From assembly GCA_038736355.1 (NCBI GenBank), contig JAVYML010000004.1, positions 1 through 5,574 of the forward strand: a stretch of DNA of 5,574 nucleotides. Direction: 5' to 3'. Numbering within the stretch: the first letter of the stretch is position 1; every line of letters begins with the position of its first letter. Origin of the DNA: Candidatus Hadarchaeales archaeon (lineage in GTDB: Archaea; Hadarchaeota; Hadarchaeia; Hadarchaeales; WYZ-LMO6). Position numbers and translations under genes: made by a program. A model generated the notes under the pieces. That model searched no databases. It worked only from the letters and a program-made list of their open reading frames with translations, and was not told where the DNA came from. This document shows positions 1 to 5,574 of this stretch, in pieces.

Positions 1-1
1 G

Positions 2-901
2 AGGATGAGGGGAACGAACGAACCCGGAGGCTTCCCCGACGGTTACATCTGCGACTTCATGCAGGCGGAAAGGGATCTCCCGGCCAGGAGGTTCCTGGAG
101 GTAGCCCAGGAGGATGAGGAGGAGGCCAAAAAGTACCTGAGGGCCTTGAACGAGGGAGTGGGAGGAATAGCGGCGGTGATAGACAACTCCATTTGGTTGG
201 GTTTCTACATGAGTGGAGGTATAGGTTTCTCCAACACCGTGGCTTCAGCCGCCTTGGCGGGTAACGTGATAGAATCCTTCTCCGATGAGCTGGTGGAGCT
301 CATCCACCGATACACCATGGGTGTGAGAAAGGCACCCCCTGAGTGGGATGTTGTGAAGTTCATGGTGAACACCATTATCCAATACACCATGGAAAGCTAT
401 GAGAAGTTCCCCACGTTGGCAGAATTCCATTGGGGAGGTGCCCACAGGGTTTCCGTTATAGGTTCCATAGCTGCGTCTACTGCAAGCATCATCACAGGCA
501 GTTCCACGATGGGATTGATGGCAGCTCACTACTCCATCGCCCATGTGATGAAAGAAGGCTGGCTCAGAACGGGATGGGCGGGACAAGAAATCCAAGACCA
601 TATAGGTCTTCCCTATCTGTGCAGCTTCAGGCCGGAGGAGGGAAACCTGGCGGAGTTGAGGGGACTGAACTATCCCATGCAATCCTTCAGCGCCGCCCAC
701 GGTGCGATCAGGGCAGCAGCCGTTTATGGGGCCATGATAGGAAGGGGAAGCGCCTGGTGCCTGAGCCCCATCGTGAAGGTGGCCTTCGCCGATCCCCATC
801 TGGTTTTCGACTTCAAACATCCCAGGCTCTGTATCGCCAAGGCAGGCATAAGACAGTTCATGCCTGCGGGGGAGAGGGACCCAGTACTCCCGCCCCACTG
901 A
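2..901 (+). CDS. mcrA: Methyl/alkyl-coenzyme M reductase subunit alpha, C-terminal half (5' partial)
   Basis: Catalytic alpha subunit of an MCR-family F430 nickel enzyme, which forms or activates alkyl-CoM with coenzyme B in the cytoplasm. The reading frame is open to the left edge; the ATG at base 5 is internal. The first codons give R-M-R-G-x-NEPGG, matching RARGxNEPGG of M. marburgensis McrA, so bases 2-4 encode the Arg271 equivalent. Family landmarks (counting from the Met at base 5): IWLGxYMSGGxGF at 63-75, WGGxHR at 143-148, GQEIQD around the thioglycine-position Gly193, LRGLNYP at 218-224, KVAFADPHLVFDF near the end, and a terminal PAGER. Divergences: Tyr333 is Thr78 or Val79, Tyr444 is Ala192, Gln400 is His147 and Cys452 is Ile200. 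About 16 extra, mostly charged residues lie near 24-45. These changes point to an alkyl-CoM reductase (AcrA) rather than a methane-forming enzyme. The SCP2-like gene follows after 9 bp. Family assignment is very secure; the substrate is inferred. Confidence 0.96.
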   Translation, partial: RMRGTNEPGGFPDGYICDFMQAERDLPARRFLEVAQEDEEEAKKYLRALNEGVGGIAAVIDNSIWLGFYMSGGIGFSNTVASAALAGNVIESFSDELVELIHRYTMGVRKAPPEWDVVKFMVNTIIQYTMESYEKFPTLAEFHWGGAHRVSVIGSIAASTASIITGSSTMGLMAAHYSIAHVMKEGWLRTGWAGQEIQDHIGLPYLCSFRPEEGNLAELRGLNYPMQSFSAAHGAIRAAAVYGAMIGRGSAWCLSPIVKVAFADPHLVFDFKHPRLCIAKAGIRQFMPAGERDPVLPPH

Positions 902-910: not shown

Positions 911-1522
911 ATGAGAAAAATCCCCAAACTAGAAGAATGGTATCCCAACTTTGCAGAAGAGTTTGAAAAAACCAAGCTTCCATCCGTTATGGAAAGGGTG
1001 ACGACGGAAAAGCCGCCCCTCCCCAAGGCTTCACAACCTCGTCCGGAAGGATGGTGGAGGGAATACCCGCATTCCCTTTGGATAGTAGACCGGGGGAGGG
1101 AGCCTACAGCCTATGAGTTGCTCCATGACTTCATTATAGGAAAGGCCATGACGAGTCCTCTGGCCATCTCCATTGGAAGTACCCCTCCCTCTAGGCTCAT
1201 CCTCTTCGAAGTAAAGCATCCCACTAGAGGGATAGAATACGCAAGGATTTTCCTCAATCCCACGGATGTGATGGAGGGCTATGCGGAGGAGGAACCGGAC
1301 GTGGTGGTTAGAATAGGATACTACGATCTGGTGGCCGTTCTCTGCGGTGAACTACCCCCCTTCAATCCTTTATACGAGGGAAGGGTGGAAATCATAGGGA
1401 ATACGGTGGCAGCCATAGACCTTTTATGTGATGTGTTAGAAGCTACTAATGGTCGGGAGGCTGCTCCGGGGAGTCCCACACCCATCCCACGGCCCGTGAT
1501 GTGGCCTCTCGGACACCCGTAG
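911..1522 (+). CDS. SCP2-like domain protein encoded between mcrA and mcrB
   Basis: A 203-aa protein of unknown role. Residues 1-60 are charged and rich in Pro and Trp (EGWWREYPHSLW at 46-57) with no domain I recognise. From about 65 it resembles the SCP2 fold: a helix near 67-80, strands near 84-115 (LAISIGS, RLILFEVKH, YARIFLN), then PDVVVRIGYYDLVAVLCGEL at 129-148 followed by a Gly-Arg turn, VEIIGN at 159-164 and a terminal helix to about 179. The order 'pD-strand-xxDLxxLLxGExxPxxxxxxGxxxxxG' is characteristic of SCP2 domains, which form hydrophobic pockets for lipids, acyl-CoA or sterols. The last 25 residues are a Pro/Gly-rich tail. No signal peptide or membrane segment is seen. It is not McrC or McrD by sequence. 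A role in carrying or presenting a hydrophobic substrate, or in assembly of the enzyme, is inferred only from its place in the operon. Confidence 0.85.
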   Translation: MRKIPKLEEWYPNFAEEFEKTKLPSVMERVTTEKPPLPKASQPRPEGWWREYPHSLWIVDRGREPTAYELLHDFIIGKAMTSPLAISIGSTPPSRLILFEVKHPTRGIEYARIFLNPTDVMEGYAEEEPDVVVRIGYYDLVAVLCGELPPFNPLYEGRVEIIGNTVAAIDLLCDVLEATNGREAAPGSPTPIPRPVMWPLGHP

Positions 1523-3698: not shown

Positions 3699-3703
3699 GT
3701 GTG
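3697..3703 (+). promoter_or_regulatory. Shine-Dalgarno site deciding the start of the 523-aa gene
   Basis: AGGTGTG overlaps the mcrG stop codon TAG (3696-3698) and lies three bases before the ATG at 3707. The longer run AGGTGTGATC resembles the consensus GGAGGTGATC. An in-frame GTG at 3701 falls inside this site, so 3707 is preferred. Confidence 0.6.
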
Positions 3704-3706
3704 ATC

Positions 3707-5278
3707 ATGAGCAGGCACCTAGAAGGTGTTAGCAGAGTACTGAGTCCTGAAGCTTTTGAGGATTTCAAGAAAAAAGTTAGTGGAACGGTACTGGAAATAA
3801 GGGAAAAACAGGCAGAAGTCTACAGGGATACTTACCCGCCGGGTTATGAGCACATAGCCCCAGATGGCATGGCCACCGAACCTTGGATGCTCAACTGGAT
3901 TAAGGAAAGGGGAGGGATAACCATGGAGGAGTATGACAAGTTGATTTATGAGGAATTCGTAGAGTGGGCTTATCGAGTTATCCATGCCATTGAGGTTTGC
4001 AAGAAAGCGGTGGCTGAGAAACCTCCCGTTTCAGAGCTCATCAAAGCCAAGTGGCTTTGCCACCTCAGCCATCCCCCCGCCTACATGGTGAGGCCGGACC
4101 TAGGTTTCTCCACCACCCAGATGCTCTATGGGAAATATGCAACCACCATGTGGTGCCATGTGGATTGGTGGAGAGGAGAATTCGTTTGGTTCCAAGGATA
4201 TCACAATGAGGATGGGGTACCGGTACAGCACTGGATCATAGGAATGACAAAGGAAATCGTACAGCATTTCGATGAAGAGGATAGACAAAAGCTCCTTACC
4301 CCCAGCGAATTCATGGCCGTTCCTTCCGATGTCACGGCACCGCTCGAACGCAGACACCTGCGTACTGGTATAAAACTCAAGGAAATTCCAAAGAAATCTC
4401 CCTATGATTTGATAGAATGGCTCCGGATGGCTAGGGACATCATCAAGGACCTGAGGGAAGAGATCTTCCCCAAGTGGACTCATGCCACTCTTTACATCTC
4501 CACTTCTCCTGGCAACATGGGTATTGCTTCCCAACACGCCTTCTGGACTTCACACTTTTGGGGCCTAGTTTGGATGGCCATGAACGCCACTAGATTGTTC
4601 GGTATCCCCATGATGTTCTACACCTATGAACCCCTTCCCCCCATCCTAAACACCCTTTTGGCCCTACCCTCCGAGCTTTGGGTTAGGAGACTCGATGAAC
4701 TTTTCACCACGGGACCGAAGGGTTTGGTATGTGATGCTATCAACAAGGTCATCACTCCTGAGAAGAAAACTCCCATGCTCCATCAGATGAGGGAACTCTA
4801 CCTCAAAGGAAAGGCGTTCAAAGGGTGGGCCATACCCTACGATGAAGGCATACCCCCACCCAAGGCCTTCCTCACCGCTCTCCCTGCCCCAGTTTATAGA
4901 GAGGCGAACATAAGGGATCTCATCGCCAATCCTGATAAGTTGCCCAAGGAGTATTGGGAGTTGTTGGAATCGGAGGGAGGAGTAGATAGGAAGACGGGGA
5001 GGGTTCCTCCCTACAATGAAGTACCGAGACTGAAGTATCTTTTTGATCCAACCATCGAATGGCTGAAGCCCAGCGATTTCCCATCCATAGATTGGAAGGA
5101 AGGACAGGTTTGGCCCTTGGACATGACGAGGGAGAAGATGCAGATCATGGTGGAAGAAGGGTATGATGGTTCTGGAGAAAACATCCTGCATTACAGCTGC
5201 TTGGCGGATAGGAAGATGGGTCAGGAAGGAAAATTGATACTCCTGGGAACTACTCCTTACAAGCTCCCGGTAGAGTAA
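3707..5278 (+). CDS. Unrecognised 523-aa Trp-rich protein of the mcr/acr operon; possibly URO-D/CoM-methyltransferase-like
   Basis: I do not recognise this protein with confidence. It is predicted soluble, with no signal peptide or clear membrane helix. It holds about 20 tryptophans, clustered at 149-161 (WCHVDWWRGEFVW) and 280-289, and Cys/His groups at 118-122 (CHLSH) and 150-151. Residues 279-345 (AFWTSHFWGLVW, then RLFGIPMMFYTYE, then LALPSELWVRRLDELF) and 373-405 (GWAIPYDEGIPPPKA followed by EANIRDLI) recall the last strands of uroporphyrinogen decarboxylase-type TIM barrels: 'FwxxxxxxxxxxxxxxgipxxxxxE', 'LxxLP' and 'GIPxxAxxEN'. That family includes the methylcobamide:CoM methyltransferases MtaA and MtbA. 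The zinc motif HxCG is not visible, and the C-terminal 120 residues are extra, so the resemblance is tentative. It is the last gene of the cluster, 8 bp after mcrG, which implies co-expression with the reductase. Handling of alkyl-CoM after alkane activation would fit but is inference. Confidence 0.9.
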   Translation: MSRHLEGVSRVLSPEAFEDFKKKVSGTVLEIREKQAEVYRDTYPPGYEHIAPDGMATEPWMLNWIKERGGITMEEYDKLIYEEFVEWAYRVIHAIEVCKKAVAEKPPVSELIKAKWLCHLSHPPAYMVRPDLGFSTTQMLYGKYATTMWCHVDWWRGEFVWFQGYHNEDGVPVQHWIIGMTKEIVQHFDEEDRQKLLTPSEFMAVPSDVTAPLERRHLRTGIKLKEIPKKSPYDLIEWLRMARDIIKDLREEIFPKWTHATLYISTSPGNMGIASQHAFWTSHFWGLVWMAMNATRLFGIPMMFYTYEPLPPILNTLLALPSELWVRRLDELFTTGPKGLVCDAINKVITPEKKTPMLHQMRELYLKGKAFKGWAIPYDEGIPPPKAFLTALPAPVYREANIRDLIANPDKLPKEYWELLESEGGVDRKTGRVPPYNEVPRLKYLFDPTIEWLKPSDFPSIDWKEGQVWPLDMTREKMQIMVEEGYDGSGENILHYSCLADRKMGQEGKLILLGTTPYKLPVE

Positions 5279-5300
5279 GCTTTTTATTTGATTCTCTCCT
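5279..5300 (+). terminator. Possible T-rich transcription termination region after the operon
   Basis: Right after the TAA stop the RNA-like strand reads GCTTTTTATTTGATTCTCTCCT, a pyrimidine/U-rich stretch of the kind archaeal RNA polymerase terminates at without a hairpin. I see no stem-loop. It overlaps the putative TATA box, so termination may be partial. Confidence 0.3.
5281..5288 (+). promoter_or_regulatory. Putative archaeal TATA box (box A) for the second mcrA
   Basis: TTTTTATT is centred about 28 bases before the GTG at 5313. Archaeal TATA boxes sit about 25-27 bases before the transcription start, so the start would fall at or just before the GTG and give a leaderless transcript. 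In agreement, no Shine-Dalgarno-like purine run precedes the GTG, unlike every other gene here. This is the only good promoter candidate in the window. Confidence 0.5.
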
Positions 5301-5312
5301 ACTTACCTAAAC

Positions 5313-5574
5313 GTGGAGAGAAGAAAGGGGCTGGACGAAAAAGCCGGCCAGCTTGAAGCTAGGGAAAGAGAATATATCCGCGAATTGTACGCTCTTTCCA
5401 AAAAATACCTTGAGGTAGAAAAGGAAAGACCACTTTATTCCATCATGCAAAGAACCTTTGGTGCCGATCCCTTTGCCCTCCAAGATTCCCAGATGTACAA
5501 GAGGGGAGGTTACAGGCAGTCAAAGCGCAAGCAGGAGTTCGCCAGGTTGGGAAGACAGGTGGCCATAGAGAGGG
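5313..5574 (+). CDS. mcrA: N-terminus of a second methyl/alkyl-coenzyme M reductase subunit alpha (3' partial)
   Basis: The frame is open from an in-frame stop at 5289-5291 to the right edge and gives 87 residues from GTG 5313. Residues 62-87 read YKRGGYRQSKRKQEFARLGR, then QVAIER, and line up with the McrA N-terminus YTLGGWKQSERKTEFVNAGK, then EVAAKR, of M. marburgensis; the upstream LYSIMQRTFG matches LFINALKKKF. Relative to that protein there are roughly 35-40 extra residues, a charged and probably helical stretch (EAREREYIRELYALSKKYLE). The GTG is chosen because a TATA-like box lies about 28 bases upstream. The internal ATG at 5445 would cut into the aligned region and has no ribosome site. 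TTG 5385 is another possibility. This is a different mcrA copy from the one at the left edge and probably begins the next acr operon. It shares no overlap with that first fragment, so their relatedness cannot be judged here. Confidence 0.85.
   Translation, partial: MERRKGLDEKAGQLEAREREYIRELYALSKKYLEVEKERPLYSIMQRTFGADPFALQDSQMYKRGGYRQSKRKQEFARLGRQVAIER

Follow-up and report, generated by a model that had tools for sequence, protein, structure and literature searches.

Contig C4 of the archaeal genome GCA_038736355.1 begins and ends inside a gene for the alpha subunit of an MCR/ACR enzyme, which raises the question of whether it carries parts of two neighboring mcrA genes or a single operon that was misassembled. 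The window analyzed here is this entire contig (5574 bases), one of four in a 1.27 Mb assembly placed in Hadarchaeota, GTDB family WYZ-LMO6 (Ca. Cerberiarchaeaceae). Its genes lie on one strand in the order mcrA 3′ part, s1, mcrB, mcrG, X, and mcrA 5′ part (Table 1), and Pfam and NCBIfam matches for all three subunits (alpha, beta, and gamma) show that these are encoded together. We regard it as highly probable that the window belongs to a tandem locus with a duplicated unit of mcrA and a small SCP2-like gene, homogenised copies, and two alternative alpha chains.

Table 1. Coordinates of the features of the window (contig C4) and of the relatives of X elsewhere in the genome
Feature	Position	Strand	Evidence or remark
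Left edge of the repeat core common to both mcrA genes	1..127	+	127 bases identical to C1 mcrA, next base diverges
mcrA1 (acrA1), 3′ part only, residues 310-607 in C1 McrA numbering	2..901	+	Pfam MCR_alpha 1.1e-24; TIGR03256 positions 269-547; 255/299 residues identical to C1 McrA
s1, 203-aa SCP2-fold protein	911..1522	+	Foldseek E 2e-6, VIA Z 12.3
mcrB, sole copy in the genome	1531..2910	+	Pfam MCR_beta 3.7e-96, single match
mcrG, sole copy in the genome	2913..3698	+	Pfam MCR_gamma 2.4e-90, single match
X, 525-aa protein	3701..5278	+	Family without Pfam, NCBIfam, or PDB match
TATA-like element AAGCTTTTTAT	5277..5287	+	25 nt 5′ of the mcrA2 start; probable separate mcrA2 promoter
mcrA2 (acrA2), 5′ part	5313..5574	+	Joined to complete mcrA2 in WYZ-LMO6
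Right edge of the repeat core common to both mcrA genes	5464..5574	+	111 bases identical to C1 mcrA
Relatives of X	C3:12489-17236; C1:50996-52279; C1:458847-460247; C2:2-115; C3:356342-357649		

The identity of the right-edge gene is borne out by several comparisons. As a preliminary description of the window had claimed, a McrA/AcrA N-terminus with the motif GGYRQSKRKQEF is encoded there, in a frame that opens with GTG and runs off the right edge, 34 bp after the stop codon of X. The region 5346-5574 shares 83% identity with the 5′ part of an intact mcrA (607 aa) on contig C1, and the frame corresponds to the N-terminal end of a full-length McrA (603 aa) in the sister genome WYZ-LMO6; these two matches rule out a chance similarity. 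Owing to its shortness, the right-edge piece matches the Pfam MCR_alpha_N profile weakly, at E=0.003, which does not reach the curated cut-off. The two fragments in the window indeed represent different, non-overlapping parts of McrA (residues 310-607 and about 1-91), with 652 bp between them missing from the window.

The head-to-tail arrangement by local duplication, which had been suggested from the two fragments, is seen uninterrupted in WYZ-LMO6, where the single contig QNVD01000218 carries the 3′ part of mcrA1, s1, mcrB, mcrG, X, a complete mcrA2, and s2, followed by a convergent acyl-CoA synthetase gene on the opposite strand; synteny and contig ends in three further genomes fit the same order. 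The mcrA2 of WYZ-LMO6 joins a window-type N-terminus to a C1-type C-terminus, and the C1 mcrA of the present genome joins the opposite N-terminus type to the same C1-type C-terminus. Two N-terminal and two C-terminal mcrA types were recovered in all four genomes of the family, including S4B3_HD70. The wording of the preliminary description, tandem MCR/ACR clusters, was nevertheless too strong. Only mcrA and its small neighbor are duplicated, and a second full MCR cluster or a duplicated whole mcr operon is ruled out by the presence of one mcrB and one mcrG in each of the four genomes. In WYZ-LMO6, the region after mcrA2 contains only the small SCP2-like gene and the convergent acyl-CoA synthetase, with no second mcrB or mcrG, and in the present genome the complete C1 mcrA is followed by a 194-aa s2 (near C1 position 54,900), again with no mcrB or mcrG on that contig.

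The edges of the window point to the cause of its isolation. Its first 127 and last 111 bases match C1 mcrA exactly and then diverge, bounding a core of ~890 bp. Two relatives (G001 and G003) also break within mcrA, where the contig ends overlap exactly by 141/141 and 127/127 bases, respectively. Exact overlaps of such size are what a repeat-broken short-read assembly leaves. The SPAdes settings given for related genomes by Hua et al., 2019 (PMC6783470) include k=127; since the right repeat edge is 111 bases and the left one 127, no single k-mer size explains both. An estimate of the identical-tract length in G001 and G003 from their contig gaps was dropped, as short diverged pieces could be lost in binning.

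Elsewhere in the assembly, the mcrA core has one other copy, in C1, so C4 either is a circle or belongs within the C1 mcrA, and synteny indicates the latter. One alternative, accordingly, is that C4 represents a single operon, circularised or misassembled, and that this genome has no tandem, for instance with a separate circle alongside a solitary C1 mcrA. Both ends of C4 do lie in mcrA with the halves in compatible order, and C1 was assembled without the operon, its mcrA being a single gene with the opposite N-terminus, which speaks against a tandem. Yet on the WYZ-LMO6 contig X is followed by a window-type N-terminus that continues into a C1-type C-terminus and then s2, the circle would carry the genome's sole mcrB and mcrG, and the two window ends neither overlap nor share a repeat, for which reason a circular contig by terminal overlap was rejected. 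We therefore judge this alternative very improbable. Most likely, on comparison with the sister gene order, C4 belongs inside C1; this placement of the tandem is by synteny rather than by junction-spanning reads. If C4 lies within it, the C1 mcrA would be an assembler-made hybrid, which is probably the case.

A further possibility is that both forms are real in the population, with recombination between the identical cores excising a 6.2-kb mcrA-s1-mcrB-mcrG-X segment and leaving the C1 hybrid. Direct repeats with an identical core would permit such recombination, and C1 and C4 are exactly the two products expected from it; however, assembly collapse at the repeat yields the same contigs without any biology, and excision would deprive the genome of its sole mcrB and mcrG. 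We give it a marginally lower probability still than the circle. The earlier concern about a recent repeat or an assembly artefact thus holds for the contig ends, which are caused by an identical repeat, and for the C1 mcrA, probably a collapsed hybrid, but the tandem itself is supported. We propose that the window is the middle of a tandem of the form [promoter-mcrA1-s1]-mcrB-mcrG-X-[promoter-mcrA2-s2], whose identical core would have broken the assembly, leaving C4 detached at the repeat and C1 bridged by one copy, with the hybrid mcrA as the result.

Comparison of the two mcrA copies across the family yields a mosaic. Within the present genome, the sequenced core edges (residues ~61-91 and 310-351) show 100% identity between the copies, and residues 578-607 are almost identical; the identity of the repeat core along its full length is extrapolated from these edges. 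Orthologues from different genomes differ in the same core-edge and tail segments by roughly 10-30% of bases. Trees group the sequences by genome for residues 322-351, mostly by genome for 548-607, and by paralogue for 352-510, with modest support for the two paralogue clades (63 and 88). Among three genomes, fixed paralogue-specific bases number 30 in residues 352-510, with none in 322-351 or 511-607, and homogenised genome-specific bases number 21 in 322-351 and 52 in 511-607. In the tail, the dS between paralogues is 0.02-0.13 as against 0.8-1.05 between orthologues within a genus. The simplest reading of these patterns would be that a joint duplication of mcrA and the small SCP2-like gene preceded the divergence of the two genera sampled in the family, that the N-terminal core and C-terminal tail of the copies were later homogenised in each genome, most simply by ongoing gene conversion, and that residues 352-510 and the first ~60 residues remained paralogue-specific, with selection keeping 17 amino-acid differences in the former. 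We also considered the Bathyarchaeota BA2 sequence as an outgroup for identifying the ancestral combination of mcrA ends; the signal from diagnostic sites was weak (7 vs 3 at the C-terminus and 2 vs 1 at the N-terminus), and this approach was set aside.

The retained segment also bears on whether, within a real tandem, the second alpha chain serves only for dosage and duplicates the function of the first, a reading that we hold to be unlikely though by some distance the most serious of the competing ones. The first-shell active-site residues of the two copies are identical and most of the protein is kept identical, as a dosage role would predict. However, the 17 amino-acid differences between the paralogues in residues 352-510 are fixed across three genomes of two genera, the paralogue dN in this segment is 0.16-0.19 compared with 0.03-0.04 between orthologues within a genus, and in WYZ-LMO6 the copies are low in synonymous differences there (0.32) and yet the amino-acid differences persist.

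With respect to function, the C1 McrA, when aligned with MCR alpha chains of solved structure, retains the F430 and cofactor motifs (AIQQM, KHA, RG.NEPGG, and GG.GF), the residues of which we take to have their usual roles in alpha chains. Both copies carry ACR-type changes (Tyr333 to Thr, Gln400 to His, Phe443 to Trp, Tyr444 to Ala, and Cys452 to Ile, in M. marburgensis numbering) at substrate-side sites conserved in methane MCR. From these changes and from the hexadecyl-CoM of a genome of the same family, the enzyme is predicted to be a long-chain alkyl-CoM reductase (ACR) rather than a methane MCR; in the literature, long-chain alkyl-CoM formation is documented for Ca. C. oleivorans alone. 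A different active-site first shell in the two copies was sought in the alignment and none was found at the motif positions; given this sameness, second-shell or tunnel positions would have to account for any difference in substrate. That the two alphas form a pair for different alkane lengths, as raised in the preliminary description, is accordingly possible.

As there is a single mcrB and a single mcrG per genome, both alpha chains, if both are made, must share partners. We envisage a long-chain alkyl-CoM reductase in which one beta/gamma set serves two alternative alphas, each with its own promoter and SCP2-like neighbor, and in which the second alpha would tune substrate range or expression rather than add a second enzyme set. 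More speculatively, and in our estimate improbably, the two alphas, which gene conversion would keep identical except for the catalytic segment and the short N-terminus, may assemble on a single beta/gamma scaffold into mixed alpha1/alpha2 hexamers; if true, the enzyme would be asymmetric, its active sites being of two kinds, or its alkane range would be tunable.

The proposed promoters are suggested by TATA-like elements found 22-25 nt before the start of both mcrA genes in the four genomes, the weakest being that of the G001 mcrA2. The element upstream of mcrA2 is the only match of the TATA-like pattern in the window (0.20 expected), and its position suggests that mcrA2 may be transcribed separately from the mcrA1 operon. 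On C1, a tRNA-Thr gene (anticodon TGT) lies directly 5′ of the mcrA1 promoter (piece L009, 11062-11135).

Each mcrA copy has its own SCP2-type gene directly 3′, the products of which, s1 and s2, are paralogues with 57% identity. The assignment of s1 to the SCP2 fold derives from its structural model (pLDDT 78) by Foldseek and VIA; s1 itself falls below the Pfam SCP2 cut-off (E 0.12), and its BA2 homologue (38% identity) is above it (2.4e-8). It is plausible that these SCP2-like proteins handle long-chain alkyl compounds. The literature searched, largely outside subscription journals, contained no paper combining alkyl-CoM reductase and sterol carrier protein. The region beside the C1 mcrA (piece L009, 1957-8471) encodes an aldehyde:ferredoxin oxidoreductase, SCP2-domain proteins, another copy of X, and an acyl-CoA synthetase, which could plausibly constitute a route from alkyl-CoM towards acyl-CoA.

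X is a multi-copy family tied to alkyl-CoM reductase, and its relatives occupy six further loci in the genome. When 394 genomes were searched with a profile, the four of GTDB family WYZ-LMO6 contained it; outside this family, it was seen in Bathyarchaeota BA2 only. Its AlphaFold model is confident (pLDDT 90, pTM 0.90), and no solved structure was found for it by sequence search of PDB or by Foldseek at E<=0.001; SCP2, its best VIA match at Z 3.3, was too weak to use. Its position in the operon suggests that X acts on the alkane, on alkyl-CoM, or on their delivery. The 3′ ends of X paralogues are homogenised too, with two copies on C3 (C3:12489-17236) sharing 323 identical bases; since C1 ends (460251) and C2 begins inside this 323-base stretch, the two contigs probably join there. 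In BA2, a single mcrA is surrounded by an X homologue and two SCP2-domain genes (piece L085, 9370-14865); the link of X and SCP2 to ACR is thus not confined to Hadarchaeota.

A second mcrA within a single mcr operon was previously reported in the Hadesarchaeota MAGs JZ-1 bin_103 and JZ-2 bin_199, where it was read as a duplication with possible neofunctionalisation (Hua et al., 2019, PMC6783470). Judged by description, those operons resemble the present tandem in having a second mcrA in one operon, and the architecture as such is thus already known. What sets the present case apart from the passages of that account consulted is the homogenisation of core and tail, the proposed separate promoters, the pairing with SCP2-like genes, and the probable collapse of the assembly, and as far as we have searched we have not found these described. 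Likewise, in the literature covered, largely outside subscription journals, we found no paper combining mcrA and gene conversion. Methanobacteriales and Methanomicrobiales, according to the same source, have duplicated mcr operons; they also possess two MCR alphas per organism, but there whole operons are duplicated, and here only the alpha gene and its small neighbor.

Hua et al., 2019 also have WYZ-LMO6 described with a single mcrA; contrary to this, the contigs of this genome (Wang et al., 2019) hold two, with the same gene order as here and a complete mcrA2. Benito Merino et al., 2024 (PMC10811742) describe one complete Acr operon for Ca. Cerberiarchaeum oleivorans S4B3_HD70, which forms hexadecyl-CoM. 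The S4B3_HD70 genome is presumably that of this organism, judging from the isolate name and the HD70 culture, and it contains the same operon and both mcrA end types as here on repeat-broken contigs. Its two sets of acrA ends are distributed over three contigs (pieces L033, L071, and L072) that break in the repeat. The second acrA of S4B3_HD70 is hidden by these contig breaks, and assembly collapse can explain single-mcrA, single-operon, or split-operon descriptions of the genomes of this family.

Such repeat collapse affects both gene counts and mcrA trees, and the C1 mcrA, as a probable hybrid, should stay out of the latter. Alkyl-CoM reductases carry out the first step of anaerobic oil degradation in archaea. 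A pair of alpha chains whose differences homogenisation has narrowed to residues 352-510 and a short N-terminus offers a ready-made comparison of which residues matter.
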